Source of the DNA: Clostridia bacterium
GTDB lineage: Bacteria; Bacillota; Clostridia; TANB77; CAG-508
Direction of reading: 5' to 3'
NCBI GenBank assembly: GCA_030539155.1
Contig: JAUNSP010000005.1
Span: forward strand, 1-38,027
DNA: 38,027 nucleotides
This document shows, piece by piece, positions 10,115-26,381 of this stretch; the stretch's first letter is position 1; each line of letters begins with the position of its first letter. A program made the translations under genes and the position numbers. Under the pieces are notes generated by a model that was given only the letters and a program-made list of their open reading frames with translations, had not been told where the DNA came from and did no database searches.

Positions 10115-10156
10115 AAAAAAATAATGTTTTGGTAAATTCCAAAACATTATTTTTTT
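10115..10156. terminator. Bidirectional terminator between the 139-aa gene and uvrA
   Basis: AAAAAAATAATGTTTTGG (10115-10132), 6-nt loop, and its complement (10139-10156): 18 bp with A-tract and T-tract at the ends, so it works on either strand. It serves the convergent genes on both sides and abuts a family-1 repeat (10151-10190). Confidence 0.85.
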
Positions 10157-10190
10157 ATATAATCCTATTAATCATGCCACTTTTGTTCTT
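10151..10190 (-). repeat. Family-1 post-stop repeat, copy A (shortest form)
   Basis: On the minus strand it starts at the base after the uvrA stop: AAGAACAAAAGTGGCATGAT TAATA, then directly the family right end GGATTATATAAAAAA. Compared with copies C and D everything between the two ends is missing, so it reads as an internal deletion derivative. Confidence 0.75.
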
Positions 10191-13010
10191 TTATAAATAT
10201 TTTTTTAAAAATTCTCCTGTATAAGATTCCCTTATTCTAGATACTTGTTCTGGTGAACCTACACAAACAATTTGTCCCCCTTTATCTCCTCCATTTAGCC
10301 CTAAATCAATTATATAATCAGCTGTTTTAATTAAATCTAAATTATGCTCAATTACAACTATACTATTTCCAGTATCAACCAATTGCTGAAGTATATCAAC
10401 TAATTTATGAACATCTGCTATATGTAGACCTGTTGTTGGTTCATCTAAAATATATAAAGTTTTCCCTGTTGCCCTTTTAGAAAGCTCTGTTGCAAGTTTA
10501 ATCCTTTGAGCCTCTCCTCCAGATAGAGTCGTTGAGGGTTGACCTAATTTTATATAACCCAAACCTACATCATATAAACTTTTAATCTTATTTTTTATTT
10601 TTGGGACATTTTCAAAAAATTCTAACGCTTCCTCAACTGTCATATCCAAAACATCAGAAATATTTTTACCCTTATACTTTACCTCTAGAGTTTCTTTATT
10701 ATATCTTTTTCCACCACAAACCTCACAAGGTACAAATACATCGGATAAAAAGTGCATTTCAATCTTTAGAATTCCGTCACCTTTACAAGATTCACATCTT
10801 CCGCCTGTTACATTAAAACTAAACCTACCTTTTTTATATCCACGAATTTTAGCTTCATTTGTAGCCATAAAAATATCTCTAATTAAATCAAATGCTCCTG
10901 TATATGTTGCTGGATTTGAACGAGGTGTCTTTCCTATTGGTGATTGATCTATATTTATTATCTTATCAATATTTTCTAAACCAGTAACATCTTCGCACTT
11001 ACCTGGTATCTCACTGGCTCTATTCTTTACTTTTGCAACTGTTTTATATAATATTTCATTAATTAAGGTTGATTTTCCAGAACCTGAAACTCCTGTCACA
11101 CAAACAAACTGACCTAATGGAATTTTCACATCTATATTTTTTAAATTATTCTCCGTAGCCCCTTTTATCTCGATGGAATTTCCATTCGACTTTCTTCTTT
11201 TTTTAGGTACTTTAATTTGTCTTTTTCCACTTAAATATTGACCTGTTATAGATTCTGGTATACGTTTTATTTCCTCCGCAGTACCTTGAGCCATTACTTT
11301 TCCTCCATGTACTCCCGCTTCTGGTCCTATATCAATTATTTGGTCTGCAGCATACATTGTATCTTCATCATGTTCAACAACTATTACAGTATTCCCTAAA
11401 TCTCTCAATTTCTTTAAAGTTCTAATCAATTTTTCGTTATCTTTTTGATGAAGTCCAATGCTTGGTTCATCGAGTATGTATAAAACACCTGTTAATCCAG
11501 AGCCAATTTGTGTTGCTAAACGAATTCTTTGAGCTTCTCCCCCTGATAATGTTTTTGAGGGTCTTGAAAGAGTTAGGTAATCTAAACCTACATCAACCAA
11601 AAATTGCAATCTCTCATTAAGTTCCTTTAATATTTGTGCTGCAATCATTCTTTGCATATTATTTAATTTTAGATTATTTAAAAATTCTTTTAATTTTACA
11701 ATAGACATTTCAGTCATTTCCACAATATTTTTATTTCCCACAGTAACGGATAAACTTTCTTTCCTTAATCTCGCACCATCACAATCTGTACAATGACTAT
11801 CTTTCATATACATCTCATAAAATGAAACCATTCCTGGTGATTTTGTTTCACTATATCTTCTTTCTAAAGTAGGAATAATTCCCTCAAAAGAACTTGAAAA
11901 TTTTCTCTCGCCGGCCGATGTTACATAGCTAAAATCAACTATATCATCACCTGTTCCATAAAGTATTTTATCCATAAAATCTTTTGGCAATTCTTTAATT
12001 GGTTTAGAAATATCTACTCCATAATATCTAGCAATACTCTCAAAATACATTTTTGCCATGGTATCACCCTTTTTCATATTACTAGCACCAAAAGCTTTAA
12101 TCCCATCATATAAAGTTTTTGTTTTATCTGGAATTACTAAATCCACACTCATCTTCATTAAATACCCAAGTCCCATACAAGTTGGGCACGCCCCAAAAGG
12201 ATTGTTAAAAGAAAACATCCTTGGAGTCAATTCTTCTATGCTTATATTACAATCAGGACATGCATAATTTTGGCTAAATAATTTTTCTTCCCCCCCGATA
12301 ACATCTATTAGGACGAGTTTATTTGCATACTTAAGCGCTAACTCAACAGACTCTGTAAGTCGTGAACGAATTTCGGGTTTAACCTTTAATCTATCTACAA
12401 CTATTTCAATGTTATGTTTTTTCTTTCTATCTATATCAATATCATCAGATAATTCATAGATCTCACCATCTATCCTAGCACGAACAAATCCTTCCTTTGA
12501 GAATTCTTGTAATAATTTTGTATACTCACCTTTTCTACCCCTTACAACAGGTGCTAATACTTGCAGTTTTGTTCCTTCCTCGAGTTCTAATATATTATCT
12601 ATTATTTGATCTATTGATTGTTTTTCTATTTTCTTACCACATTCAGGGCAATGTGGAACTCCAATCCTCGCATATAACAATCTCATATAATCATAAATCT
12701 CTGTAACAGTTCCTACTGTTGAACGTGGATTTTTTGAAGTTGTCTTCTGATCTATTGATATAGCTGGTGATAATCCATCAATTTGGTCCACATCTGGCTT
12801 CTCCATCATCCCTAAAAATTGCCTTGCATACGATGACAGACTTTCCATATACCTCCTTTGCCCTTCTGCATATAATGTGTCAAAAGCTAAAGAAGATTTT
12901 CCAGACCCTGAGAGTCCCGTAATTACGACTAATTTATCCCTTGGAATTTCCAAGTTAATATTTTTTAGATTGTGTTCTCTTGCACCTTTTATTACTATTC
13001 TATCATTCAT
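10191..13010 (-). CDS. uvrA: Excinuclease ABC subunit A (UvrA)
   Basis: Damage-recognition ATPase of nucleotide excision repair. From ATG 13010 it is 939 aa, the family's usual length. Two ABC modules: the first Walker [11 protein letters not shown] at about 31-40, the second GVSGSGKST near residue 640, and LSGGEAQRI signatures in both. Zinc motifs are CPECGKK, CPDC...CPTC, and CESCKGDG with [10 protein letters not shown]. The frame is open 14 codons further upstream, but [20 protein letters not shown] is the family N-terminus and AGGGGG lies 8 nt before this ATG. uvrB and uvrC are not adjacent. Promoter 13058-13086; the 5' leader has a perfect 8-bp hairpin. The stop codon abuts repeat copy A. 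Confidence 0.97.
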
Positions 13011-13027
13011 TTTTTGCCCCCTATTTT

Positions 13028-13047
13028 GGAGAAAATCCCTTTTCTCC
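13028..13047 (-). other. Hairpin in the uvrA 5' leader
   Basis: Perfect 8-bp inverted repeat GGAGAAAA / TTTTCTCC with a 4-nt loop, inside the transcript and ending 8 nt before the AGGGGG ribosome site. It could modulate initiation or mRNA stability. It is not followed by a T-run, so it is not a terminator. Confidence 0.5.
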
Positions 13048-13057
13048 GTCACTAATT

Positions 13058-13086
13058 ATTATATCATATTTTACATAATAGTGCAA
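13058..13086 (-). promoter_or_regulatory. Sigma-A promoter for uvrA
   Basis: Minus strand TTGCAC (13086-13081), 17-nt spacer, TATAAT (13063-13058). No clear LexA-type operator was recognised. Confidence 0.75.
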
Positions 13087-13197
13087 GAGGATTTTAATTA
13101 AATTACGTTACAAATGTTACTGATTAAGGGTTATTATAAACTACACCACAGAATAGACAAATTTTATAATATATATTCTATTAATTTTCATTTTTTT

Positions 13198-13227
13198 GTC
13201 ATAACTTCCAAATGCTCTTAATATATA
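13198..13227 (+). promoter_or_regulatory. Possible sigma-E promoter for spoIVA
   Basis: GTCATAAC (13198-13205), 14-nt spacer, AATATATA (13220-13227), against the Bacillus sigma-E consensus GTCATATT / CATACAAT with the same 14-nt spacing as the dacB promoter at 24787. The -35 is good and the -10 only partial. spoIVA is a known sigma-E gene. Confidence 0.5.
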
Positions 13228-13272
13228 TTAACTAACATTTATGTACAAACATTTTCTTTAAGGAGGTTTTTT

Positions 13273-14754
13273 ATGGAAGAAAATATAAAATTATATCAAG
13301 ATATAGCAAAACGTACTAATGGTGATATTTATGTTGGTGTTGTTGGTCCTGTTCGAACAGGGAAATCTACTTTTATAAAAAGATTTATGGATTTAGTGGT
13401 AATTCCAAATATTAATGACTCATATCAAAGAGAGAGAGCTTTGGATGAATTGCCACAAAGCGCTTCTGGTAGAACTATTATGACCACAGAGCCAAAATTT
13501 ATTCCAAATGAAGCTATAGAAATTTCACTAAACAATAATTTAAAATTAAAAACAAGATTAGTTGATTGTGTAGGTTATTTGGTTAACAATGCAATTGGTC
13601 ATTTGGAGGATGATACTCCTCGAATGGTTAAAACACCATGGTCTGATGAAGATTTACCTTTTGAAGTTGCCGCCGAAATGGGAACTCGAAAAGTAATAAC
13701 CGAACACTCCACAATAGGTGTTTTAATAACAAGTGATGGAAGTATTACTGATATTCCCCGCTCAGACTATATTCAAGCAGAGGAAAGAGTAGTTAATGAA
13801 TTAAAGGCCTTAAATAAGCCCTTTGTAATAATTTTAAATTCAAATAATCCCTACTCAGATTATACTAGAAATTTAAAAGATGAATTGGAAAGGACCTATC
13901 AAACCCCCGTACTTGCTATTGACTGTAATAATATGAATATAAATGACATTGAAACAATATTTGGAAAAATACTATATCAATTTCCTATCGAAAAAATTAA
14001 TATCAATTTCCCTAATTGGGTAAATAATTTAACAAATTCACACTGGTTAAAAAATCAACTTTTCGACGAAATTAGAAACACTTTTTCCAATATTAAAGTG
14101 TTAGATGAGGTTGCAAACTGCGCTAATAATCTAAAAAATAGTGAAATTATTCAAAATGTTTCAATTGACGAAATAAAACTTGAAAACGGTGAAGTATGTA
14201 TTTCTGTTATTATTGATGATGAATTATTTTATAAAATACTATCCGAAGTTTCTGGAATAGATGTTACAAATGAGGGTGATCTATTTTCTATTATCACCGA
14301 CTTATCTTCAACAAAAAGAGAATATGATAAAATTGCTTTTGCTTTAGAAGAAGTTAAAGCAAAGGGATATGGAATTGTTACTCCGTCAATAGAAGAATTA
14401 ATCTTGAATGAACCTGAAATGGTTAAACAAGGTTCACGTTTTGGAGTGAAATTAAAAGCAAAAGCTCCTTCTATTCACATGATTAGGGCAGATATCGAAA
14501 CAGAGGTCTCTCCTATCGTTGGTAGTGAAAAGCAATCTGAGGAACTTGTTAATTACCTTTTATCTGAATTTGAAAATGATCCAAAAAAGATTTGGGAATC
14601 AAATATCTTTGGAAAAAATCTTCATGAACTGGTAAACGAAGGCTTACAAAATAAGCTTTGCAAGATGCCCGAAGATGCACAATATAAGCTTCAAGAAACC
14701 TTAGAGAGAATTATTAACGAAGGCAGTGGTGGACTAATTTGTATTATTTTATAG
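13273..14754 (+). CDS. spoIVA: Stage IV sporulation protein A (SpoIVA)
   Basis: ATPase that polymerises on the outer forespore membrane to make the base of the spore coat. 493 aa, against 492 in B. subtilis. Walker A GPVRTGKST at 25-33; the conserved block RTIMTTEPKFIPNEA and LVDCVGYLVNNAIGH follow, and the family C-terminus GGLICIIL is intact. Mother-cell expression fits the sigma-E-like promoter upstream. AAGGAGG precedes the ATG. Its membrane partner SpoVM is encoded about 4 kb away (18847-18930). The stop codon is followed at once by repeat copy B and then a terminator. Confidence 0.97.
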   Translation: MEENIKLYQDIAKRTNGDIYVGVVGPVRTGKSTFIKRFMDLVVIPNINDSYQRERALDELPQSASGRTIMTTEPKFIPNEAIEISLNNNLKLKTRLVDCVGYLVNNAIGHLEDDTPRMVKTPWSDEDLPFEVAAEMGTRKVITEHSTIGVLITSDGSITDIPRSDYIQAEERVVNELKALNKPFVIILNSNNPYSDYTRNLKDELERTYQTPVLAIDCNNMNINDIETIFGKILYQFPIEKININFPNWVNNLTNSHWLKNQLFDEIRNTFSNIKVLDEVANCANNLKNSEIIQNVSIDEIKLENGEVCISVIIDDELFYKILSEVSGIDVTNEGDLFSIITDLSSTKREYDKIAFALEEVKAKGYGIVTPSIEELILNEPEMVKQGSRFGVKLKAKAPSIHMIRADIETEVSPIVGSEKQSEELVNYLLSEFENDPKKIWESNIFGKNLHELVNEGLQNKLCKMPEDAQYKLQETLERIINEGSGGLICIIL

Positions 14755-14817
14755 AAACAAAAGTGGCATAATTAATATACTCAAACATTTTAAACTTCTT
14801 TCCTATTATATAAAAAA
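14755..14817 (+). repeat. Family-1 post-stop repeat, copy B (internally deleted)
   Basis: Begins at the base after the spoIVA stop: AAACAAAAGTGGCATAAT and TAATATACTCAAACATT, then jumps to the family right end CTTTCCTATTATATAAAAAA. The left part matches copy C through ACTCAAACATT, and the right part matches copy D, so the middle (hairpins 2 and 3) is absent. Confidence 0.75.
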
Positions 14818-14819
14818 TA

Positions 14820-14843
14820 GGGGTATCCTTAAATGGGTACCCC
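14820..14843. terminator. Terminator between spoIVA and the ABC transporter gene
   Basis: GGGGTATCC, 6-nt loop, GGGTACCCC (one wobble pair), then ATGTTTTTTATT on the plus strand. On the minus strand CTATTTTTTATAT follows, so it can serve the convergent gene too. Confidence 0.75.
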
Positions 14844-14850
14844 ATGTTTT

Positions 14851-17800
14851 TTATTCATTTCTTAATGCCAATACTGGATCTTTTTTTGTTGCCTGTTTTG
14901 ATGGAATTAATCCCCCTATCAACGTTAAAATTACACTTAAAATTACTAATGCTATGGCTCCTTCTACAGGGAGAACTGCCGTTATTCCAAGATTTCCTGT
15001 TAATGTATTTATAACCTTATTTATTGGGAATAATAATATGGTGGTAATTAAGATTCCGCAAATTCCTGCAAAAAGTCCTACAATAAATGTTTCCGCATTA
15101 AATATTGATGATATATTCCTCTTCGATGCCCCTATCGCCCTTAATACACCTATCTCCTTGGTTCTCTCTAATACAGAGATATATGTTATTATTCCTATCA
15201 TAATTGATGATACAATTAATGATATACTTACAAATGCTATTAAAACATAACTTACACTATCTACAATTACCTTTACTGAGGACATTAATGTCCCTGTTAT
15301 ATCTGTGTATTTTATAACTTTTTCTTCATCTTCATTTTCCATTTTCTTATTATAATTATCTAAAAAATCTATAAATTTTTCTTTTGACTGAAAATCCTTA
15401 AAGTAGAATGATATACTAGATGGTTCTTCTATATCTTGATATCCAAGTGTACTTAAATTTGCTTTTGCACTCCCAGTTGCATTTTTAGAATACATTGTTT
15501 CTATAAGTCTTTTCATTTCATCCTCATCTAAATTAAATTTAAACGCCGATGCTATTTTTTTCTCATCCACTTTGAAGGCACTTGCCATGCTTTTCATTAA
15601 TTTCGATGTAAGTTCTCCAACTTTTGATAATACATTTTTTTGCATAGCCGCTTCAGTCATTTTTACCGCTATCGTTTTTGATGCTTGAGCTATTGCCTCT
15701 TGATTCACAAATGTTTCAACCATCTGGTTTACTGCACTCTTTACTAACACTGCGCCACCAACTTCACCCATATTTTCATTTTGGTTAGTTTGCTCATTCT
15801 CCCCACTTCCCGCAGAACTTATGCTAATGTATTGTGTTAAAAATCCTTTAATCATATTTGTATACATCGTAGAAAAAGTATCTTGTGGAATTATATAATC
15901 ACTTTCCATTTTTGAGAGTAGTTCCTTACTACTTTCTGTTTTTAAAAATTCATCTACAACACTATCTACATCTCTTCCTTTTATTGAAGCAATCCCAGCC
16001 ACCTGATTTTTATCTATATAATCATTCAATAAGTTTTTTGTAAGTGTGCCCAATGTAGTTTTAAAGTCTTTTTCCGCCTTTTCCGTATCTGCTGTGATAC
16101 TTGAGGAAATCTCATTCATATATCCTTGTGTCATATTTTTTATATCATTTTCGCTAATTTTCCCTCCAAATGCAGACTCTAATGCTTTTTTATCTATCGA
16201 AATCATATCTTTGAAATCTAATCCTGATGCCTTATCATCATCCTCAAAACTTTTGTTACTAAATACATTTATGTCCCCATTTGCTAATTGTTTCTTAACA
16301 ATTTCTGATTTTGATGCCTCTTCTATTACATATCTCGTTAAATCTTTTGTGTATGCAATTCCAGACATTAAACTAATTGAATTTGAGTTATCCTTTGGGC
16401 ACACAATACCTACAATTTTTAAATTCAATGCATTATGATATACACTTTCCATAAAATCTTCATCCTCTGTCATACTTTCGTATACCTTATATTTATCATT
16501 GTATCTATACGTACTTGTGGCATCTAATAATTTTAATTGTATATCCATTAAATCCTTATAGGAAAACTCTAAAGGTATATTATCATTTTGAACTTCTTCC
16601 CCTTGCAAGACTTTAGATATCATATCTTCTAATTCTTTTGATTCCCTTAATCCTAAACTATATAGTAATAAATCTGAAATACTATTTGGATCTGGCAAGA
16701 TTAACATTACTTCATCATATTTTTCCGGTAAGTTTCCTGCTAGAACTTTATATTGTGACTCGATTATTTCCCTTTCATCAATCATTTCATTAAAAACTGA
16801 AGCATTTGATGCTGGCAACATTGAATTCGAACTTCCACTTATATTCGAAATTAGCGTACTTGGATTAAGTCTTGTTATCTCTTGTTTATTATTTTTTGTA
16901 TATATTAATGGTTTTATATCATATAAATACTGTGTAAACGATACCATTTCATCCACTGTTTTTTGATTCTCATCCAAATAATTTTTGAAAGATTTTAAAT
17001 CATTTTTTCCTATTTTTGAAAACATATTTGCCATATTTTGTGTTTCTTTTATTACGCCATCCTTTCCTGTTTCCTCATCATTTTTTTCAACCATCGAAAG
17101 TAACATTGATGTTGTATCTGCTGTTTCTGATGTAACCGTTAATGGATATGAGGTTAGGGTGTCTTCTTGTACCTTATTTATATAATTCTGAAACCCTGTC
17201 GATAATGATAATATTAAAGCTATACCGATTATACCTATCGACCCCGCAAACGATGTTAATATTGTACGCCCCTTTTTTGTGAGTAGATTATTCAAGCTAA
17301 GTGTGAACGCTGTAAACATCGACATTGATGTCTTTCCTAAATTTTTATGTTTCGGTTTTACTACCTCTTTCTCATTAGATATAAATGGGTTTGTATCTCC
17401 TATTATTTTTCCATCTCGCAAATTTACAATTCTTGTTGAATATGCACCTGCAAGCTCAGGGTTATGCGTTACCATTATTACTAATCTATCATCTGCTACC
17501 TGTTTCAATAGTTCCATTATGTTCAAACTTGTTTGTGTATCCAATGCTCCTGTAGGCTCATCCGCTAATAAAATATCAGGATTATTAACTAAAGCTCTTG
17601 CTATTGCAACTCTCTGCATTTGCCCTCCTGACATTTGATTTGGCCTTTTATGTGCTTGTTCCTTTAATCCTACCTTTTCTAGTGCATCGATTGCCCTTTT
17701 TCTTCTCTCTCTTTTTGATATTCCTCCAATTGTTAATGCTAATTCTACATTAGATAGTATTGTCTGATGTGGTATTAAATTATAACTTTGAAAAACGAAA

Positions 17801-18057: not shown

Positions 18058-18168
18058 TTCTTCCCCCTTACTTATAAGTAAATTTCTGTAAAATAACTTC
18101 TCTTTAATTATATCATAAAAAATTAAAAAAAAGAATACTTTTTCAATACATACTCAACAAAAGCAAGA

Positions 18169-18221
18169 ATAGTGTATAATATGGTGTGTGGATTTTAAAA
18201 GCACATCATATTATACACTAT
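18169..18221. repeat. Long inverted repeat in the divergent spacer
   Basis: ATAGTGTATAATATG (18169-18183) and its exact complement (18207-18221). Six further pairs (two wobbles) extend the stem inward, giving about 21 bp with a loop of about 10 nt. Each arm contains TATAAT on its own strand. No U-run follows. It could be an operator dyad, a small structured RNA, or a relic repeat. Confidence 0.7.
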
Positions 18222-18339
18222 CCTCCTTGTTTTAATTTTTTTATTTTAGGGTTTCCCCCATCCATAAATTAATTATAAAATTTATTTTTCAAATAGTGAA
18301 CACAAATTAGAAAAGTTTTGAAAAAAATACATAAAAGAC

Positions 18340-18368
18340 TTGTTTTTTTTTGTTTTTTATGTTATTAT
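18340..18368 (+). promoter_or_regulatory. Possible promoter for rpmB
   Basis: TTGTTT (18340-18345), 17-nt spacer, TATTAT (18363-18368), about 48 nt upstream of the start. The region is very T-rich, so chance matches are likely. Confidence 0.4.
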
Positions 18369-18415
18369 ATTATATAGTCAAAGTGTTAATTTTTAACATA
18401 TAGGAGGTGCAGAAC

Positions 18416-18613
18416 ATGGCAAAATGTGAAGTTTGTGAGAAATCGATATCTCATGGAAATAAAATAAGTATAGCTCGTTCTCATGTTTCAAGGAGAAGTT
18501 CAAGAACATGGAAACCTAATTTAAGAAAAGTAAAAACTCTAGAAAACGGAGAAAAGAAAACTATTTCTGTATGTGCAAAATGTTTACGTGCTGGAAAAGT
18601 TACAAGAGCTTAA
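18416..18613 (+). CDS. rpmB: 50S ribosomal protein L28, zinc-binding type
   Basis: 65 aa, full length. Cys4, Cys7, Cys53 and Cys56 (CEVC and CAKC) form the zinc site of the C+ type of L28. The core SHVSRRSSRTWKPNLRKV is typical of the family. ATG at 18416 has AGGAGGTG 7 nt upstream; the in-frame GTG at 18407 lies inside the ribosome site and is rejected. Next to spoVM, as in Bacillus, but here the two are convergent. Repeat copy C starts 8 nt after the stop. Confidence 0.95.
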   Translation: MAKCEVCEKSISHGNKISIARSHVSRRSSRTWKPNLRKVKTLENGEKKTISVCAKCLRAGKVTRA

Positions 18614-18621
18614 TTCTTAAA

Positions 18622-18771
18622 AAGAACAAAAGTGGCATGATTAATACACTCAAACATTGCTGCGTCTTTGTTCATGCGCCAAAAATTTTTTTTAATTTTT
18701 GTGTGCATTAGTTTGGGGCGTAGCCCTTTTTATATAATAAGTGATTGCAAAAACTTTCTATTATATAAAAA
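18622..18771 (+). repeat. Family-1 post-stop repeat, copy C (full length)
   Basis: Starts 8 nt after the rpmB stop with AAAGAACAAAAGTGGCATGA. Then ATTAATACACTCAAACATT; a hairpin built on ATGCGCCAAAAATTT (from 18674) and TTTTTGTGTGCAT; the terminator GGGC-GTA-GCCC-TTTTT (18716-18731); and a terminal inverted repeat CTTTTTATATAATA / TATTATATAAAAA. The right partner of the first stem (CATGCCAC in copy D) has decayed here to GCTGCG. Confidence 0.75.
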
Positions 18772-18846
18772 ACAAATATGCAGACAAATATTTAATAATC
18801 TTTATTGAATATTTGTCTGCATATTTGTTTGTGTGCCAAAATTTTT
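18726..18846 (-). repeat. Family-1-like element behind spoVM, copy F, sharing its end with copy C
   Basis: Read from the spoVM stop: AAACAAATATGCAGACAAAT starts the left arm of a long stem, then comes its complement, then TTTTTTATATAATAG leading into the same terminal hairpin used by copy C. It has the family layout (A-rich anchor, stem, TATATAATAG end) but a different stem sequence. C and F are therefore tail-to-tail and overlap over 18726-18771. Confidence 0.55.
18770..18830. terminator. Strong hairpin between rpmB and spoVM
   Basis: 23-bp perfect inverted repeat (18770-18792 with 18808-18830), loop 15 nt, arms containing GCAGACAAATATT and AATATTTGTCTGC. On the minus strand it runs into TTTTTTATA, making a good terminator for spoVM. 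For rpmB the GGGC/GCCC hairpin at 18716-18731 comes first. Confidence 0.75.
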
Positions 18847-18930
18847 TTAACCTTTATCATTATGTATCCCAAATATCATTTTCACAATTCCCCTTAAACA
18901 TTTGGGTACTTTTTTTACTACTATCTTCAT
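18847..18930 (-). CDS. spoVM: SpoVM, amphipathic peptide that anchors the spore coat base
   Basis: 27 codons: MKIVVKKVPKCLRGIVKMIF then GIHNDKG. Position by position it matches B. subtilis SpoVM (26 aa): Lys7, Pro9, Lys10, Leu12, Gly14, Ile15, Val16, a basic residue at 17 and Gly21 are shared, and Pro9 is the residue known to matter for curvature sensing. The known role is to bind the convex forespore membrane and recruit SpoIVA, whose gene is also in this window. AAGGAG lies 8 nt before the ATG. It follows the 49-aa membrane-protein gene by 26 nt and sits next to rpmB, as in Bacillus. It is short enough that length-based gene callers would miss it. Confidence 0.88.
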   Translation of the reverse strand: MKIVVKKVPKCLRGIVKMIFGIHNDKG

Positions 18931-18956
18931 TTACTCCACTCCTTTTTTTATTATAT

Positions 18957-19106
18957 TTAGCATATTAACCACATTAACCCCACTATTAAAATAATTGCCC
19001 CTATACAAAATAACCAACCTACTAAAGGCAGTAATAATACTAATAATATTCCTAATCCAAACCCTATTAAACATACCCCTATGGTTTTTCTTAGAGCACA
19101 CAACAT
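18957..19106 (-). CDS. 49-aa membrane protein upstream of spoVM
   Basis: MLCALRKTIGVCLIGFGLGI continues into LLVLLLPLVGWLF and ends GLMWLIC: a short cationic head, then two hydrophobic segments (about 8-28 and 30-48). A stop codon lies three codons upstream of the ATG, so the start is fixed; GAGGGGTGG lies about 9-12 nt before it. It is in the same direction as spoVM, 26 nt apart, and probably cotranscribed. I know no named function. A role in the outer forespore membrane is a guess from its neighbour only. An overlapping 62-codon frame on the same strand has no such pattern. Confidence 0.65.
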   Translation of the reverse strand: MLCALRKTIGVCLIGFGLGILLVLLLPLVGWLFCIGAIILIVGLMWLIC

Positions 19107-19178
19107 AATACATTACCACCCCTCTTTAATATATTATATTATTTTATATTTTTTTTGTTACTATTTTCATTATTTTTA

Positions 19179-19207
19179 TTGACTTTTTACCCATAAAGAT
19201 ATATATT
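19179..19207 (+). promoter_or_regulatory. Sigma-A promoter for the bactofilin-like gene
   Basis: TTGACT (19179-19184), 17-nt spacer, TATATT (19202-19207), 34 nt upstream of the ATG. Confidence 0.65.
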
Positions 19208-19241
19208 TAATTTATATTATTAAATTAAAGGGGGATTTTTT

Positions 19242-20396
19242 ATGTCTATAAAAAATTTAAAGATTGTAAGTATTATCTTTATTTTTGTTTTACTATTTAA
19301 CTTTTCATTTACTTTTGCCACTAATGACGATAACGAAACATTAATTAAAGATGATATCTCTACAGGATCTGAAGAAACACCTGTTAATGGTGAACAAGCA
19401 ACACAAGAGGAAAACAAAACTGAGGACGATAAATGGATTTATGAAGATTATTACATGTCAGGAGATAATATAACGGTAGATAAAATCATCGATGGAAATG
19501 CCTTTATTTCAGGAAGTACAGTTACTATTTCCGGAGAAATAGGTGGAGATTTATTTGTAGTAGCTGAAAAAGTTATTATCGAAAGTGGATATATTTATAG
19601 TAATTTATTTGTTGTAACTCAAGAATTGATTATAAATGGTATTGTATATGACCTATACGGATGTGCAAGTAATATTACTCTATCTGATGAAGGTCTTATT
19701 GCAAGAGATTTCCGTGCATTTGCAAATAATGTTACTATTAACGGTCAAATAAATAGGAATGCATATATTTCAGTTAATGAATCGCTTTCAATAAGTGATA
19801 CCTGCTCAATATCAGGAAATTTAAAATACAGTGTACCAAGTGAAATTAATGTTCCAGAAGGCGTGGTAAATGGTGAAATTTCATCCAAAATAACTACACC
19901 TCGTTCAAAAACTCCTACTGTATCATCATTATTCGAGTCAATTTTAGGATTACTATTCTATACTATAGTAGTAGCTTTCTTTACTCTCAAATTTGCACCA
20001 AAATTCGTTGATAATTTAGTAGAAAGATTTAAGGCTCCACAAACATATATCTACGGATTACTTACTTTGATACTTGCACCTATAGTAATTGTTTTACTAT
20101 TAGTAACATTTATTGGAATAAAATTATCACTACTATTAACATTATTATATTTACTACTAATTACATTATCAACAGCAATTGTAAATATTACGGTTGGAAA
20201 ACTAATTTCTAATAAACTTAGTGAAAAAAGTGGAAAAGTATTTACTCCTATGAATTGTATTATTCTTACAACAATTGCACTTTGGATTTTAGATAAAATA
20301 CCATATATTAACGTATTTACTTCACTATTAATCTTTATCGCTGGATTTAGTTTATTAATTCCATCTTTCAAATCAAAAAAACAGAAAGATAGCTAA
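19242..20396 (+). CDS. Exported bactofilin-like beta-repeat protein with C-terminal membrane domain
   Basis: 384 aa. Signal peptide about 1-27 (VSIIFIFVLLFNFSFTFA). An acidic Thr/Glu-rich linker follows, then at about 75-215 a repetitive valine/isoleucine pattern (GDNITVDKIIDGNAFISGSTVTISGEIGGDLFVVAEKVII in sections) resembling the right-handed beta-helix of polymer-forming bactofilin domains. Four hydrophobic segments occupy about 225-378, and the tail is basic. The arrangement suggests an extracytoplasmic beta-helix tethered by a membrane domain. Function unknown, possibly envelope architecture. AAAGGGGG precedes the ATG. Single gene with its own promoter and terminator. Confidence 0.75.
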   Translation: MSIKNLKIVSIIFIFVLLFNFSFTFATNDDNETLIKDDISTGSEETPVNGEQATQEENKTEDDKWIYEDYYMSGDNITVDKIIDGNAFISGSTVTISGEIGGDLFVVAEKVIIESGYIYSNLFVVTQELIINGIVYDLYGCASNITLSDEGLIARDFRAFANNVTINGQINRNAYISVNESLSISDTCSISGNLKYSVPSEINVPEGVVNGEISSKITTPRSKTPTVSSLFESILGLLFYTIVVAFFTLKFAPKFVDNLVERFKAPQTYIYGLLTLILAPIVIVLLLVTFIGIKLSLLLTLLYLLLITLSTAIVNITVGKLISNKLSEKSGKVFTPMNCIILTTIALWILDKIPYINVFTSLLIFIAGFSLLIPSFKSKKQKDS

Positions 20397-20420
20397 TTAA
20401 TAAAAATAAGAAAGTAAACA

Positions 20421-20454
20421 AAGAACTGGGAAAAGTTACTTTTTCTCAGTTCTT
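20421..20454 (+). terminator. Terminator after the bactofilin-like gene
   Basis: AAGAACTGGGAAAA, 6-nt loop, TTTTCTCAGTTCTT (one wobble), then TTTATATAG. It starts 24 nt after the stop and merges into the right end of repeat copy E. Confidence 0.8.
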
Positions 20455-20590
20455 TTTATATAGTAGGAAATTTTACAATTACCTATTATATAAAAAAGTC
20501 TACGTCCTAAACTAATATACACAAAAAATACGCGGACAGTTATATAAGTACAAATCAATGTATTTATATAATTGTCCGCTTGTTCTTTAT
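20453..20590 (-). repeat. Family-1 post-stop repeat, copy E (diverged, covarying stem)
   Basis: Minus orientation, 3 nt after the stop of the 278-aa gene: AAAGAACAAGCGGACAATTA opens the first stem. Its two arms (20532-20550 and 20561-20579) pair over 19 positions with two wobbles. Then TTTTTTGTGTATATTAGTTT and AGGACGTAGACTTTTTT align with copy C (TTTTTGTGTGCATTAGTTTG, GGGCGTAGCCCTTTTT), followed by the terminal inverted repeat TATATAATAGG / CCTACTATATA. The stem sequence differs from copy D but the pairing is kept. Confidence 0.7.
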
Positions 20591-20593
20591 TTA

Positions 20594-21430
20594 TTAAAAT
20601 TCTCCTCTTCCCTCTGGAAGTGCTGGTAATTCTAACACTACTCTTATTTGGAATACGTATTTTATAGCTCTTACTAATTTACTACTTTTAAATTTAGACC
20701 AAATAGATTGCTTTACACTTACTCTGGTTTCTTCGAAATATTCTTCCATTTCTTGTTCTTCAATAGCTTCAAATTCCTCAACCTCTTGTATTTCTTCCTC
20801 TGGTTTAGGTATAAGTTTTAGTGCTTCAGCAACTTCTATACCTATATAACTTAAGGCTTTAGACCTATCCTCTATTCTCTCCATATCTATTTCAATATGA
20901 AGATTTACCTCTAAATTATTTATTTTTGAATTAATTAGTTTTACCGCTTCTTGATAATTTTGAGAATCCTTTGTTTTTAGTCTTCCTATTTGACCTAAAG
21001 TATCTATTATATCACCTTGAAAATCATTAGAAATTTCTTTTATTCTATCCTTCCAACCTGATTCTTTATTCTCAACTGCTCCAAGTGTATTTTTTAATAC
21101 ACCTGCCAAAGAGATGTTTTTTTCCCTTTGTCTTATTAATTCTTCTATTTGTTTTGTATTCTCCTCAAACTGATTTGTAGCATATTCTACTAATTCATAA
21201 GCTGCCTTATATACACTAACTGGAAAATTCTTTTTCTTCGGATATTCAATCAAATATGTTTTTACAGATTCAATTAAATCTTTAAAATAAGAATCCTCTT
21301 CTAATTCTATAATTTGTTTCTTACTATTTGGATTTATTATCCTATGAATTTTATCTATGTTTGATAAAATTTTTTCTTCTGTGATTACCATTCTCACGTT
21401 TACTATGCCGGATCTACCCCATCTTGACAT
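20594..21430 (-). CDS. Unknown 278-aa helical protein with LPALPEGRGEF tail
   Basis: No family recognised. 278 aa, no signal peptide. Mostly helical and charged (RMVITEEKILSNIDKIHRII, KQIEELIRQREKNISLAG). A strongly acidic stretch at about 212-236 (EEEIQEVEEFEAIEEQEMEE) is followed by a basic amphipathic segment (KFKSSKLVRAIKYVFQIRVV) and the sharply different tail LELPALPEGRGEF. The basic segment could contact membrane or nucleic acid. GGGGGG lies 6 nt before the ATG. Own promoter (21500-21528); repeat copy E follows the stop. Confidence 0.7.
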   Translation of the reverse strand: MSRWGRSGIVNVRMVITEEKILSNIDKIHRIINPNSKKQIIELEEDSYFKDLIESVKTYLIEYPKKKNFPVSVYKAAYELVEYATNQFEENTKQIEELIRQREKNISLAGVLKNTLGAVENKESGWKDRIKEISNDFQGDIIDTLGQIGRLKTKDSQNYQEAVKLINSKINNLEVNLHIEIDMERIEDRSKALSYIGIEVAEALKLIPKPEEEIQEVEEFEAIEEQEMEEYFEETRVSVKQSIWSKFKSSKLVRAIKYVFQIRVVLELPALPEGRGEF

Positions 21431-21499
21431 TGTAAACCCCCCTTTTCCTATTATTTTATATCTTACATATTTTATCTATAAATACTAATCTACATTATA

Positions 21500-21528
21500 A
21501 TTTTATTACATAAAAATCGAGTTGTCAA
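21500..21528 (-). promoter_or_regulatory. Near-consensus promoter for the 278-aa gene
   Basis: Minus strand TTGACA (21528-21523), 17-nt spacer, TAAAAT (21505-21500), about 70 nt upstream of the start. Confidence 0.75.
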
Positions 21529-21559
21529 TAGAAAAAACAAAAAAATTTATTTTTTACTA

Positions 21560-23419
21560 TTATTTTTTTATTTCTGCAAATCTTTTTATCTTCATAGTTG
21601 TAGTTTTCTCAAATTCACCTTTTTTTATTTCCAGTTTTTTTATTGCTTTATATGATGTTAATGTCCTATTTACTGCCTTTATCTGGTTCCAGATTATATC
21701 ATAGATTTCATCATCTGTCTTGTTTTTTCCATGAATTACTGCAATTTCATCATAATTTGGAATTACCCTAACAGTTAAAATAAGTTCTCTGTCGTCTTTT
21801 TTATTTTCATTTTCCTTTCCATATACCATACACTCTTTTATCTCTGGTATATCTCCCAATAGTAATTCTATCTCCTCTGGATAAATATTCTTTCCATTCT
21901 GTGTTACTATCACATTTTTACATCTTCCTGTAATGTATAAAAATCCATTTTTGTCTAAATACCCTACGTCCCCTGAATGAAACCATCTTTCACCATCAAT
22001 TAGTTCAATTGCCTCATTTGTCGCCTTTTCATCTTGATAATATCCCAACATTAAAGTTTTACTTTTTATGAGTATCTCACCCTCGCCCTTATCATTTGGA
22101 CTATCTATTTTTAATTCTGAACAATTTACTGCTCTCCCTGCTGAACCTACCTTTGTTTCAAAATCAGGTGTAAGCGCACAGATTGGCGCTGTTTCTGTTA
22201 GACCATATCCTTGAATAAATAATATTCCTATATCCTCAATCCATTTTCCAACCTTCGCATCTATCGGAGCTGCTGCCGAAACTATTAACCTTAAATTCCC
22301 CCCCAAACTCTCATATATTTCATTAAATATTTTTCTTTTTATATCTACATTAACCGTTTTAAGCGCATTTGTTACATGTATCATTGAATTTACCATTGTG
22401 TCCTTCTTTGTTTTTACAATATTAGCATTTATTTTTTTATATAAATTTTCAATTAAAAGTGGTACCCCTAACATTATTGTTGGTTTTATCTCTTTTAAAT
22501 TTTGAACAATATATTTTAAACCTTGACAAATACCTATTGATGCACCCACGGAAAAAGGTACTAAAAAGCCAATTGTTGATTCATAAGTATGATGAAGTGG
22601 AAGTACTGAAAAAAGTCTATCCTTTTCAGTAACTATTACATATGCTCTAACAGCATTTATATTTTCAGCCAAATTTCTACTGCTAAGCATTACACCTTTA
22701 GCATTTGACGTCGTTCCGGAAGTAAATAATAGTACTTTAAAGTCATCAGGTTGAACAATTACCTTTTCAAAATAATCATCACCCTTCTCAATCATTTTAT
22801 TTCCCATATTTATTAAATGGTTTAATCCAACTTTTCGATCCTCTATTTCCTTATCTGAATTCATTTCTATAAAGAAATTCACACCTGGTAAATTATCCTC
22901 TACTTTTTTTATAACATCCTTTTTCTTTGTACTATAAATAACTGCTTGAACTCCTGCTCTTCTTAATACATTTTCAATCTCATTTGCTGGTAATTCTTTA
23001 TCTATTGGGACTACTATCCCCGAGCCACAAAGCATTGCCATATAGGAAACGTACCATTGATATGTAGTTTCACCAATAATTGCTACTCTTTCATTTTTTA
23101 AATCCAGCAAACCTGAAAGTGCAGTTCCAAGGGCACTTACATCCTTTTCGAATTGAGAATATGTTATCTCTTTAAACACTCCCTTTGTTTCATATTTTTC
23201 TAAAATGCATACGTTTTCACCATATTTTCTTGTAACCTCTTTAAAAACCTCTTGAATAGTAGTATATGAAGTTGTTTCATAGTTTTTTACTCGCTTTCTT
23301 TCCTTATCTTCTTGATTTTTCTTCATTTCATCAAAATTTATTTTTAATTCACCAATTTCACCTAATCTGAATTTAGGAAATTTAAAATTTGGTATTTTAA
23401 ATTCTTTTAATATTCTCAT
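21560..23419 (-). CDS. AMP-binding acyl-CoA synthetase (long-chain fatty acid type)
   Basis: 619 aa. ATP-dependent activation of a carboxylic acid, probably a fatty acid, to acyl-AMP and acyl-CoA. AMP-binding motifs: P-loop LLFTSGTTSNAKGVMLS, GYGLTETAP, and the hinge and C-terminal motifs WFHSGDVGYLDKNGFLYITGR and NGKNIYPEEIE. The length and layout fit the FadD/long-chain ACSL group. A short Lys/Phe-rich N-terminal extension (about 40 aa, KIPNFKFPKFRLGEIGELK) precedes the domain; it has no membrane segment. The chain-length preference cannot be read from sequence. Preceded by its own promoter, which overlaps the end of the glucosaminidase gene. Confidence 0.9.
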   Translation of the reverse strand: MRILKEFKIPNFKFPKFRLGEIGELKINFDEMKKNQEDKERKRVKNYETTSYTTIQEVFKEVTRKYGENVCILEKYETKGVFKEITYSQFEKDVSALGTALSGLLDLKNERVAIIGETTYQWYVSYMAMLCGSGIVVPIDKELPANEIENVLRRAGVQAVIYSTKKKDVIKKVEDNLPGVNFFIEMNSDKEIEDRKVGLNHLINMGNKMIEKGDDYFEKVIVQPDDFKVLLFTSGTTSNAKGVMLSSRNLAENINAVRAYVIVTEKDRLFSVLPLHHTYESTIGFLVPFSVGASIGICQGLKYIVQNLKEIKPTIMLGVPLLIENLYKKINANIVKTKKDTMVNSMIHVTNALKTVNVDIKRKIFNEIYESLGGNLRLIVSAAAPIDAKVGKWIEDIGILFIQGYGLTETAPICALTPDFETKVGSAGRAVNCSELKIDSPNDKGEGEILIKSKTLMLGYYQDEKATNEAIELIDGERWFHSGDVGYLDKNGFLYITGRCKNVIVTQNGKNIYPEEIELLLGDIPEIKECMVYGKENENKKDDRELILTVRVIPNYDEIAVIHGKNKTDDEIYDIIWNQIKAVNRTLTSYKAIKKLEIKKGEFEKTTTMKIKRFAEIKK

Positions 23420-23474
23420 TTTTACCCTCTTTTCTCAAATTAACACTTTCTATTTTTTAATAAAGTCTTTTAAT

Positions 23475-23503
23475 ATTATACACTTTTATTTAAAAAATTG
23501 CAA
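23475..23503 (-). promoter_or_regulatory. Sigma-A promoter for the acyl-CoA synthetase gene
   Basis: Minus strand TTGCAA (23503-23498), 17-nt spacer, TATAAT (23480-23475), 55 nt upstream of the ATG and directly after the stop of the upstream gene. Confidence 0.7.
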
Positions 23504-23504
23504 G

Positions 23505-24710
23505 TTACAATCTATTATATAGGTATTCCATCCATTTATATACTCCATTACACCATTTTTTATCTGTTGCGTACTTCGTATTTACACCTCTTAATGTAGG
23601 TCCATTGTAGTTACTTCCCGTTGCACTCTGCCCCTCATAGATAGATGTACCCTTTGGATTTAAATAGTATTTTACAAGTACCCTTGCGATTAAATCTATT
23701 CCTTCATTATAATCTTTGAAATCATACGCCGAAGTATACGCACTCGAATCATATGCCCCATATCCAAATAAATTCTTTTTGTCCTTAGATATTTTTGATG
23801 TTCCCCAGGCACTCTCATGAATTCCTATTGCAGCTATAAATATACCATTTACATTATATTGCTGTTCTGCATAATAAAAGTATTGTGCATTACTATTAAA
23901 TATACTATTTTTATCTCCACTATTATCTGCTAATACTTTATTAAACTGCTCTAATGATAATCCACTTTTCTTGTTTAAACTCATATCAAAATTTAAAGTA
24001 GCAAGCAATTCCCCTCTTGATTTATAACCTGATGCTATCTGTTCTATCTTTGCTTGACTTAGGTATGTTAAATTTTCTTTCTCTATCCAACCTACATACT
24101 TACCATATTGTATTTTGTACCATTCATCTTGCATTTCAAGTAATTTTACATCTTTCCCGTTTCCTATTGAAACAATCTTTCCACTATCTTTATTAGGTTC
24201 AAATTTTATAGAAGCATTAATCGGTGTTACATATAGAGTATCTCCAATTTTTACGTTGTATGAACTTGTATAAGCTGCCGTTCCTACTTTTACAATTTTA
24301 TTTACAGAAGATTTTATTACTCTACTATCTAATTGTTCCTCTTTTTGTAATTCATTATTTACATATATTTTTCTCACTGCAATCTCTTGCAGTCCATTTT
24401 GTCCTGCCTGCTCTACCTGCATTACCCCTTTTGGTAAACTATTATCATTTCTATATTTAGTAATATACTCTAAATCAATTTGTTCTTTTATGATTTCTTG
24501 AGTTTCAACTGTATTTGAATTTTTTTCAATAATTTCATCTATTTTAGGCTGTTCATTCAATTTTGTGCCCGTTATATCAAAATAATCATTATTAACCGTT
24601 TGTTTCGAAATAGCATCGGATATTTCTCCACTATTTAATGTAAATATAAAAATAGGTAATAATAATCCTATGAAACTTAATAAAACTATTTTTCTTTTCT
24701 TCCCCTTCAT
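23505..24710 (-). CDS. Secreted wall hydrolase: G5, SH3b and glucosaminidase domains
   Basis: 401 aa. N-terminal signal/anchor (KGKKRKIVLLSFIGLLLPIFIF). A G5-like region at about 78-135 (ITKYRNDNSLPKGVMQVEQAG, then GLQEIAVRKIYVNNE), an SH3b-like region at about 140-215 (VKLLEMQDEWYKIQYGKYVGWIE), then a C-terminal GH73-type N-acetylglucosaminidase domain with the catalytic-region pattern AAIGIHESAWGTSKISKDKKN and NLFGYGAYD. The Glu in HESAWG is the likely acid catalyst. Cleaves the glycan strand of peptidoglycan outside the membrane. Divergent from the carboxypeptidase gene, with promoters about 12 nt apart, so control may be shared. Confidence 0.88.
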   Translation of the reverse strand: MKGKKRKIVLLSFIGLLLPIFIFTLNSGEISDAISKQTVNNDYFDITGTKLNEQPKIDEIIEKNSNTVETQEIIKEQIDLEYITKYRNDNSLPKGVMQVEQAGQNGLQEIAVRKIYVNNELQKEEQLDSRVIKSSVNKIVKVGTAAYTSSYNVKIGDTLYVTPINASIKFEPNKDSGKIVSIGNGKDVKLLEMQDEWYKIQYGKYVGWIEKENLTYLSQAKIEQIASGYKSRGELLATLNFDMSLNKKSGLSLEQFNKVLADNSGDKNSIFNSNAQYFYYAEQQYNVNGIFIAAIGIHESAWGTSKISKDKKNLFGYGAYDSSAYTSAYDFKDYNEGIDLIARVLVKYYLNPKGTSIYEGQSATGSNYNGPTLRGVNTKYATDKKWCNGVYKWMEYLYNRL

Positions 24711-24745
24711 ACTTTTTTCTCCTATTCTCTTCCTAATCTATTTAT

Positions 24746-24774
24746 ATTGTAATATTTTTTTTTAAAAAAGTCAA
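24746..24774 (-). promoter_or_regulatory. Sigma-A promoter for the glucosaminidase gene
   Basis: Minus strand TTGACT (24774-24769), 17-nt spacer, TACAAT (24751-24746). Confidence 0.65.
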
Positions 24775-24786
24775 ATAAAAAAAATA

Positions 24787-24816
24787 ATCATATTCTTAAT
24801 ATTTGTCTCATATGAT
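24787..24816 (+). promoter_or_regulatory. Sigma-E-type promoter for the D,D-carboxypeptidase gene
   Basis: ATCATATT (24787-24794), 14-nt spacer, CATATGAT (24809-24816): 7/8 and 6/8 matches to the Bacillus sigma-E consensus GTCATATT / CATACAAT at the right spacing. There is no sigma-A pair in this spacer on the plus strand. The ribosome site TGGAGGG and the ATG follow within about 25 nt. Confidence 0.65.
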
Positions 24817-24839
24817 TTAATAATTATTGGAGGGATTTT

Positions 24840-26165
24840 ATGAAATTTTTAATAAGGTATTTAAAATTATTTGCTATGATATGCATTCTATCTTTTATTT
24901 GTTCACCCATATGTTTTGCATCAAGTTTAGACAATGTATTTGTTTGGTCCGCTGAAGGGGATAATATTACCAACTCCCCTGATACTATCGATAATCAAAA
25001 TAATAACATTGAAACAAATGCAAGTAGCATCTCTTCTGACGAAAATATAATAAATACGGTTGAAACATCTGGGGATGTTATTGAATCTACAAATTCCTTA
25101 ACTATAGAATCTGGTTCTGGAATTCTAATTGAACAAAATAGTGGCAAAGTTTTATTTGAACATAATTCTCATGAACAACTAAGACCCGCAAGCGTTACAA
25201 AAGTAATGACAATCCTCCTTATTATGGAGGCTATCGATTCTGGAAAAATAACACTTGAAGATTCTGTTCCTTGTTCTGAGAATGCAAGTAATATGGGTGG
25301 TTCTCAGATATGGCTTGATCCTAAAGAAACTCTTACAGTTCATGAAATGTTAAAAGCAATCTGTGTTGTTAGTGCAAATGATTGTACTGTCGCAATGGCA
25401 GAATATCTTGCTGGAAGCGAGGAAGCCTTCGTTGAACAAATGAATTCCCGCGCTTCTGAATTAGGAATGAATGATACGTGTTTTAAAAATTGCCACGGAT
25501 TAGATGAAGATGGACATTTAACTTCAAGTTTTGATATTTCACTAATGTCAAGGGAACTGTTAGTTAATCATCCATCTATCACAAATTACACCACCATTTG
25601 GATGGATTCCCTTCGTGATGGGAAATCAGAATTAGTAAATACTAATAAATTAATTAGAAATTATAATGGGACTACAGGTTTAAAAACAGGTTCTACCTCC
25701 CTTGCATTATATAATTTGTCCGCTTCCGCAACACGAGATAACCTTTCCTTAATAGCCGTTATTATGAAAGCCCCAACAACTAGTATCCGTTTCGCTGATA
25801 GCCAAAAATTATTAAATTATGGTTTTTCAAATTACATTTATAAGAGTTTTGGAAATAAAGGAGACACTGTTAAGAATATTAATGTGTCAAAAGGAATTTC
25901 CACAACAGTAGAAGGGATTTTAGAAAATAGTTCAGGCGTCCTATTAAGAAAAAATGATGAACAAAATGTAGAACAAATTATCAATATTCCTGATATTACT
26001 TCTGCCCCTATTGAAAGTGGAAGTATTTTAGGGAAGATTGAATATAAATTAAACGACGAAATAATAGGATCTGTTAATGTAGTATCAAAAAACTCAGTGA
26101 AAAAAATAGGCTTTTGGACCACAACAACCCACCTTTTGCAAAATCTATTTATACGAAGTAAATAA
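24840..26165 (+). CDS. D-alanyl-D-alanine carboxypeptidase (S11; DacB/DacF type)
   Basis: 441 aa penicillin-binding protein that trims terminal D-Ala from peptidoglycan stems outside the membrane. Signal peptide about 1-28. An Asn/Ser/Thr-rich linker (about 38-88) is unusual in length. Catalytic motifs: SVTK (118-121), SAN (178-180) and KTG (282-284). A C-terminal beta domain and an amphipathic tail (KKIGFWTTTTHLLQNLFIRSK region) match the membrane-tethered PBP5 group. The sigma-E-like promoter suggests a sporulation (cortex) enzyme such as DacB, but homology alone cannot separate DacB from DacF. Repeat copy D follows the stop. Confidence 0.9.
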   Translation: MKFLIRYLKLFAMICILSFICSPICFASSLDNVFVWSAEGDNITNSPDTIDNQNNNIETNASSISSDENIINTVETSGDVIESTNSLTIESGSGILIEQNSGKVLFEHNSHEQLRPASVTKVMTILLIMEAIDSGKITLEDSVPCSENASNMGGSQIWLDPKETLTVHEMLKAICVVSANDCTVAMAEYLAGSEEAFVEQMNSRASELGMNDTCFKNCHGLDEDGHLTSSFDISLMSRELLVNHPSITNYTTIWMDSLRDGKSELVNTNKLIRNYNGTTGLKTGSTSLALYNLSASATRDNLSLIAVIMKAPTTSIRFADSQKLLNYGFSNYIYKSFGNKGDTVKNINVSKGISTTVEGILENSSGVLLRKNDEQNVEQIINIPDITSAPIESGSILGKIEYKLNDEIIGSVNVVSKNSVKKIGFWTTTTHLLQNLFIRSK

Positions 26166-26167
26166 AT

Positions 26168-26320
26168 TAAACAAAAGTGGCATGATTAATACTCTTTAAA
26201 CTTTTAAATTTCTCTCCATGCCACGTTTTTGTTCATGCGCCAAAAATTTTTGTGTGCATTAATTTAGGGCAAAGCCCTTTTTATATAATAGGGAAGGAGA
26301 ACTTTCCTATTATATAAAAA
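26168..26320 (+). repeat. Family-1 post-stop repeat, copy D (full length, best preserved)
   Basis: Starts 2 nt after the dacB stop. Stem 1: AACAAAAGTGGCATG (26170-26184) with CATGCCACGTTTTTGTT (26217-26233). Stem 2: ATGCGCCAAAAA with TTTTTGTGTGCAT (26235-26259). Stem 3: GGGC-AAA-GCCC-TTTTT (26267-26282), a small intrinsic terminator. Stem 4: terminal inverted repeat CTTTTTATATAATAGG / CCTATTATATAAAAAG (26277-26321). All four helices can form in the same RNA. Confidence 0.8.
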
Positions 26321-26366
26321 GGGCAAAAAAAATATAAAAAGATTTCCCTTTTTATATTTTTTACCC
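26321..26366. terminator. Bidirectional terminator between dacB and secY
   Basis: GGGCAAAAAAAATATAAAAAG (in two parts), 6-nt loop, CTTTTTATATTTTTTACCC: about 18 pairs with small bulges and long A/T runs on both sides. It ends the minus-strand ribosomal operon 15 nt past the secY stop and backs up the stem-3 terminator (26267-26282) on the plus strand. Confidence 0.8.
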
Positions 26367-26381
26367 TTAATAATATATTTT

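Follow-up and report, generated by a model that had tools for sequence, protein, structure and literature searches.

What is a folded repeat doing behind the stop codons of five genes? The question is raised by a contig of a Clostridia bacterium (assembly GCA_030539155.1, contig JAUNSP010000005.1, C59 below), whose positions 1 to 38,027 make up the window analysed here. Genomes, contigs and loci are cited by G, C and L numbers, the genome of the window being G000 (1.408 Mb, 92.3% complete, the sole member of its genus in the compared set). A preliminary description had listed five copies of the repeat, A to E, and all five were recovered, by inspection of the sequence, by pattern and by covariance model. 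We conclude, with a probability of about 0.85, that the repeat, about 150-160 nt long, is a mobile DNA element that is non-autonomous and prefers intrinsic terminators. Its position after stop codons is best read as a consequence of this target choice.

The repeat family is mobile. Genomes G154 and G153, those of loci L067 and L092, respectively, are sisters whose spoIVA loci are 92.3% identical over 18.5 kb; at E ≤ 1e-5, G154 had 17 matches to the element and G153 had 3. Flank matches between the two genomes had 90-98% identity in 12 of 17 cases. For 12 of the 17 G154 copies, a two-sided flank match was obtained in G153. One of these copies (L316) was present in both genomes, nine (L303, L305, L306, L310, L311, L312, L314, L315 and L318) were absent from G153, and at two (L308 and L317) G153 had a short stretch resembling a left-end remnant. 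Among the nine, L314 and L318 differ between the two genomes by more than the element, L315 gave a left junction only, and the six others had base-exact junctions. With ^ marking the point of insertion, the empty sites read AATATTAA^CAAAAAAGAC, GTTAACGA^TAAAAAGAG, GAAAAATA^GAAACGAAGC, AAAAGTTA^TAAAAAAGGGG, CAAAATA^TAGCAAAACAAC (L311, where three target bases were lost), TCTATTAA^TAAAAAATAG and ATCTATAA^CTAAAAAGG. No target duplication was found at the six base-exact sites, where short A-rich junction matches leave 1-2 bases of play. Junction-side bases sometimes differ between filled and empty sites, apparently more often than the flanks at large.

The same was seen in the reverse direction: the copy at L092 of G153 is absent from L067 of G154, where the empty site reads TCATAAA^TAAAAACG. 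This insertion lies immediately upstream of a TAA stop, and the open reading frame (ORF) gains six codons and ends at a TGA of the element. A comparison of G151 with the more distant G150, too diverged in DNA for exact junctions, gave two-sided matches for 9 of 17 G151 copies, all nine absent from G150. For one G066 locus, compared with five relatives of the genus at a divergence that again precludes an exact junction, four relatives had both flanks with no copy between them and one had no left match. Empty orthologous sites, which the preliminary description had proposed to look for, thus exist. At the terminator of L317/L322, G153 carries an apparent left-end remnant of another subfamily, and some terminators may be repeated targets.

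Target preference was examined on 96 strict, intact copies from 11 genomes, cut from 222 loose candidates many of which were false or duplicate, a set that favours intact ends. Twenty were directly followed by another copy. For the other 76, equal windows of 68 nt were compared on both sides: the right side had a strong hairpin (score 8 or more) starting within 12 nt in 44 copies and the left side in 15, and slightly longer right windows gave 45 versus 15. AAA was present in the first bases on the right of 67 of the 76, and the base preceding the element was A in 84 of 96 copies, as part of a TA or AA dinucleotide in 78. In G000, folding with z < -2 was obtained for 26 of 41 flanks on the right and 6 of 41 on the left; among intergenic stretches, a control that includes element-bearing regions, the figure was 46 of 161. 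By eye, many right flanks have the layout of a bidirectional terminator, with an A-run before and a T-run after a stem. At its right end, TATA followed by T or G and an A-run, the element is joined to an A-tract, which commonly forms the 5' foot of such a terminator hairpin.

Gene context was scored in G000 for 65 independent copies, with genes called by our simple codon-score caller and with matches to the right-end hairpin alone on the opposite strand excluded as palindrome echoes. Both neighbours could be assigned for 44 copies and not for 21. Nineteen of the 44 lie between convergent genes, 15 in antisense and 8 in sense between co-directional genes, and 2 between divergent genes (convergent versus divergent, p = 0.0002; antisense versus sense, p = 0.21, not significant). 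Spaces of at least 60 nt in the DNA around copies, itself a biased sample, comprised 22 divergent and 32 convergent ones. The preliminary description had each copy starting 0-8 nt after a stop codon and always in the orientation of the upstream gene. In the window every copy does follow a stop and share its orientation, except that the first base of copy B is itself the last base of a TAG stop. Genome-wide, however, element and upstream gene share a strand in only 27 of 44 cases and are opposed in 17; the fixed orientation in the window is a small-sample effect. Thus orientation is not fixed, while the link to gene 3' ends holds over many copies: in 19 of the 27 same-strand cases the element starts 0-15 nt after the stop. 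This closeness would follow if the target is the stretch of few bases that separates a stop codon from the A-tract of a terminator hairpin already present and specific to the locus. Of the suggested 3'-untranslated region (3'-UTR) or terminator module, what stands is that copies are often at gene ends beside a terminator; they are not locked to the orientation of the upstream gene.

A full copy is a row of hairpins, H1, H2, a small H3 and H4. H1 consists of GAACAAA-A-GTGGCATG, a loop of about 31 nt and CATGCCAC-GTC-TTTGTTC; H3 is GGGCGAAGCCC; H4 is the right-end palindrome, with terminus TATTATATAAAAA. The left end GAACAAAAG.. and the right end ..CTATTATATAAAAA do not form an inverted repeat with one another; each is the foot of its own hairpin and pairs within it. 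DNA folding gave z = -7.2 for copy D and -3.45 for copy C, and one copy folded as RNA gave z = -9.4. For comparative analysis, 34 representatives from 10 genomes were aligned (35 of the 96 strict copies were non-redundant, and one with a long H1 was omitted). Pairing was kept in 95.0% of cells and both sides had changed in 22 of 40 pairs, with a covariation score of 0.286 versus 0.102 for shuffled and at most 0.057 for slid alignments; the rows being related, cells are not independent events. On this comparative evidence, the hairpin structure is under selection. With one conserved G.T pair (29 cells) set aside, 27 single-step departures were of the G.T type and 25 of the A.C type. In an RNA, G-U should be tolerated far better than A-C; the similar counts therefore point to DNA, and the structural changes look DNA-like.

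Some junctions bear on how the right end is made. In most rows, CTATNATA is followed by T or G, and this base is paired with the left arm of H4 in 32 of 33 rows (columns 135-171), so it would seem to belong to the element or to be corrected later. In tandem arrays the junction reads TATA-GAAC or TATA-TAAC. At L001 (G000 C2:1996-2388), where two full copies and a third, partial one stand in tandem, the left end of the neighbour has a private change, reading GCAC, and the H4 arm matches it with GTGC, which suggests a correction within the palindrome. At L016 (G000 C112:11411-11571), the H4 loop reads GTTCTCC where other copies have GGAGAAC, an inversion suggestive of a flipped palindrome.

A mechanism can be proposed from these features. 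An enzyme supplied in trans would recognise the hairpins in DNA form, either extruded or in a single strand, and would join an intermediate, circular or single-stranded, to the A-tract side of the target hairpin. H1, with its A-run, stem and T-run, would mimic the terminator target, so that arrays would grow by insertion of new copies ahead of existing ones. An insertion between stop codon and terminator probably does little harm; it would spare the genes on both sides and leave termination unimpaired, and the accumulation of copies at such places would be explained. It is possible, although we hold this tentatively, that the element represents a terminator-homing class of its own: a chain of DNA hairpins with neither terminal inverted repeats (TIRs) nor an ORF, in which the left hairpin mimics the target. 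Its movement would depend either on an undescribed enzyme recognising terminator hairpins in DNA form or on reverse transcription primed at the A-tract, as for a bacterial counterpart of a short interspersed element (SINE). Homing into the few bases between stop and terminator suggests a safe-haven strategy in compact bacterial genomes, and the filled and empty sister genomes are ready material for studying the mover. If the mover does read terminator hairpins as DNA, it would represent a new kind of targeting, useful for placing cargo at gene ends without damage.

Several points weigh against a terminator-seeking mobile element. With the same score, 32 of the 76 right flanks have no strong hairpin, and the L092 insertion precedes a sequence resembling a ribosome-binding site, with no evident terminator; because of these, the A-tract may be more important than the hairpin for target choice. 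The AAA on the right is partly the element's own, since the element ends in an A-run. The excess of hairpins on the right could partly reflect survival after selection, and the deficit at divergent sites (2 versus 19 convergent) probably includes selection against promoter damage. The conserved G.T pair, found in 29 of 34 rows, and the somewhat better folding seen for the top strand (in 25 of 34 rows with DNA parameters, in 27 with RNA parameters) would suit an RNA too, and leave a role for one strand possible. Nor is any enzyme linked to the element. Among 11 high-copy genomes (G000, G017, G066, G073, G104, G119, G136, G145, G149, G151 and G154) and five low-copy ones (G010, G103, G146, G150 and G153), a split that we made after the copy numbers were known, neither Y1 transposase, reverse transcriptase nor IS110 transposase is consistently linked to the element. 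IS110 (PF01548), rejected as mover, is above cut-off in only 3 of the 16 genomes (G000, G136 and G154), all three among the 11 high-copy ones. Most IS110 matches are weak and below cut-off, many of them in ORFs of about 1450 aa that are probably DNA polymerase III exonuclease domains, and the three IS110 loci L380-L382 hold no covariance-model copy. One of them, L380 (G000 C110), encodes an IS110-type transposase of 401 aa whose ORF looks intact.

The mechanism might instead be that of a single-strand element mobilised by a Y1 transposase of the HUH type, IS200/IS605 or RAYT-like. The lack of target duplication, the hairpin ends, the orientation-specific joining and the tandem arrays are all as expected for such an enzyme, and several genomes encode Y1 ORFs of about 250-275 aa, RAYT-like in their length. 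In G154, a Y1 ORF of 274 aa (L367) is bordered, immediately beyond its 5' end, by a sequence resembling the right end of the element (ACTTTCCTATAATATAAAAA, positions 1948-1967), which is backed by a terminator-like hairpin. However, Y1 (PF01797) had no match in five of the 11 high-copy genomes (G000, G017, G066, G073 and G119), drafts in which absence is uncertain, and was matched in four of the five low-copy ones. No covariance-model copy was present in 12 Y1 loci, about 1.5 kb being examined on each side, among 20 matches listed. Y1 was therefore rejected as mover, and mobilisation of this kind seems unlikely.

Still less likely, in our opinion, is an RNA-mediated, SINE-like copying, which would keep mobility and target and change the mechanism: a transcript ending in the A-run would anneal to the T-tract strand of a terminator and be reverse-transcribed in place by a resident enzyme. 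The right junction is indeed in register with the target A-tract (with the three target bases lost at L311), no target is duplicated, and at least 8 matches in G000 cover the right part only (model positions ≥71), as 5' truncation would give. In G154, by contrast, all 17 matches keep the left end and 4 have no right end, the reverse of 5' truncation, and the structural changes are DNA-like. The reverse transcriptase domain RVT_1 was found in 10 of the 11 high-copy genomes and 1 of the 5 low-copy ones, a correlation to be read with the later drawing of the split in mind; the exception, G104, is 88% complete. The enzymes are of mixed kinds, and reverse transcriptase was rejected as mover: among ten scanned, L369 alone passes the group II cut-off, L370 falls one bit short and eight are clearly below. 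L369 is a group II intron reverse transcriptase of G000 itself, and group IIC introns are reported to recognise terminator hairpins as DNA (PMC3898094). An element copy was present in one of 12 reverse transcriptase loci (L372, about 0.9 kb from the ORF). The stretches examined, comprising the 12 Y1, 12 reverse transcriptase and 3 IS110 loci, showed no autonomous version sharing the ends of the element.

How large and how widespread is the family? A pattern of the left end, allowing up to three mismatches, hit 39 places in G000 and its reversed control none; the five window copies belong to a dispersed family. A covariance model built from 20 G000 copies gave at least 107 matches at E ≤ 0.01 in the same genome, palindrome echoes included; since 150 of 3071 candidates were scored, the copy numbers are minimum values. 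Truncation and internal deletion were common among the copies, in agreement with the earlier view of A and B as internal deletions. At E ≤ 1e-8, with 20 candidates scored per genome and hence again as a lower bound, at least 28 of the 145 genomes of the same taxonomic family, one of gut Clostridia (G000 included), in 18 of 39 genera, had a match, and 117 had none. The spoIVA ORF of the window is at most 76% identical to the best 80 of its 369 relatives, which are metagenome assemblies labelled Clostridia, Clostridium, Clostridiaceae or Lachnospiraceae and, where a source is given, from rabbit (Lapin), wild mice and ruminants. No match was obtained in phage and plasmid collections by distant blastn with one G000 element as query, nor in viral contigs searched with three left-end patterns (0, 0 and 0). 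Rfam gave, for the window and five loci, five matches at E ≤ 1, to four microRNA families and to one snoRNA, none of which reached the gathering threshold. A cis-acting RNA that serves as 3'-UTR or terminator, held in place by function and not mobile, would account for the frequent position after stop codons and for the conserved hairpins, but is very improbable given the empty sites that contradict it, the 17 of 44 copies opposing the upstream gene, the 117 relatives with no match and the failure of any Rfam family to reach threshold. Two left-end subfamilies, GAACAAATCGGAAAGCC (in G104, G017 and G154) and GAACAAATCTCGC (in G119 and next to copies in G104), differ little between genomes of different genera or of no stated kinship, hinting at horizontal spread. 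At the G119 loci L341 and L342, element copies lie inside a larger, separate palindromic repeat (GGGATTTCCATCTATTTTTT .. AAAAAATAGATAAATCCC).

We found no published description of this repeat family in the literature searched, which is not proof of absence. A classical miniature inverted-repeat transposable element (MITE) is short, non-coding, dispersed and mobile, as is the present element, and the comparison made in the preliminary description holds for these properties, for the fixed ends and for the internal deletions. It does not hold for the inverted repeat joining both ends or for the target-site duplication, neither of which was found, the latter at the six base-exact empty sites, and for these two reasons the element is not filed as a classical MITE. 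We call it a variant of the miniature mobile repeats and file it under no named family. The YPAL and EFAR repeats are likewise palindromic, about 170 bp long and located near the ends of genes. Elements derived from REP/RAYT or IS200/IS605 share hairpin ends and the lack of target duplication, but Y1 is not general in the many-copy genomes (5 of the 11 drafts being without it), as the DEDD transposase of IS110-type elements is not. Group IIC introns are ribozyme retroelements, whereas the window and five loci gave no Rfam intron match at E ≤ 1 that would indicate a group II ribozyme core; the end and strand with which these introns face the hairpin also seem to differ. IS1272 belongs to the IS1182 family.

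Likenesses are found among the folded repeats of a Firmicute. The pneumococcal BOX, RUP and SPRITE repeats (PMC3049150) are short, interspersed and enriched at gene 3' ends, SPRITE most of all, and BOX sometimes supplies a stop codon; small size, folding and 3'-end bias are common to them and the present element. The TIRs of BOX and RUP pair with each other and SPRITE is itself terminator-like (PMC3049150), whereas here each end has its own hairpin and a separate terminator stands beside the element. In a review of MITEs, three passages on terminators concern SPRITE and a general possibility (PMC10969869). New copies of IS1272 target inverted-repeat structures with no target duplication (PMC5678879), as here, but IS1272 has a transposase and TIRs and is said to replace the target repeat, whereas here the target hairpin stays. 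REP/REPIN are hairpin repeats hypothesised to be moved by tyrosine transposases reading single-stranded DNA; they measure 20-40 bp with a GTAG tag (PMC3733652), whereas the present element measures about 155 nt, starts with GAAC and has no linked Y1.

The five copies of the window, with their terminators and the hairpins of copy D, are listed in Table 1. Their shared left end, corrected from the preliminary description, is GAACAAAAGTGGCATGA; B reads GAAACAAAAG and D reads TTAAACAAAAG. Copy A was detected by the left-end pattern alone; at its junction a TAA stop is followed by 2 nt and GAAC, with the terminator hairpin beyond the element.

Table 1. Element copies and associated hairpins in the window (bits, covariance model score; z, folding; gene names uvrA and dacB from the preliminary description).
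Feature	Position	Strand	Bits	z	Remarks
Copy A	10151..10190	-			Left end fused to right-end remnant (internal deletion), 3' of uvrA
Terminator hairpin abutted by copy A	10120..10151			-4.3 (60 nt right of A)	A-tract, stem, T-tract
Copy B	14754..14817	+	30.5		Internally deleted; first G completes TAG stop of spoIVA ORF
Terminator hairpin and T-tract right of copy B	14820..14852			-2.8	
Copy C	18622..18771	+	133.8		Nearly full, H1 shortened, 3' of rpmB
Terminator-like hairpin right of copy C	18772..18829			-14.4	
Copy E	20453..20590	-	58.2		Diverged, 3' of 278-aa ORF
Terminator hairpin right of copy E	20421..20454			-3.8 right, also -3.3 left of E	Terminator of convergent 384-aa ORF
Copy D	26168..26320	+	174.3		Full, 3' of 441-aa ORF (dacB)
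H1 of copy D	26170..26233	+			Left-end hairpin; fold, compensatory changes across genomes
H2 of copy D	26235..26259	+			Fold, compensatory changes across genomes
H3 of copy D	26266..26278	+			Small, missing in some subfamilies; fold
H4 of copy D	26279..26319	+			Right-end palindrome ending TATTATATAAAA; fold, compensatory changes across genomes
Terminator hairpin right of copy D	26321..26367			-6.1	

A second palindrome, with core GGTGTGTGGATTTTAAAAGCACATCATAT, lies in the window at 18170-18232, upstream of rpmB, and again at L013 (1583-1611), at the end of contig C103, where it directly follows an element left end. Among 389 loci, 4 contain an exact match, but 3 of these represent a single place of the window.

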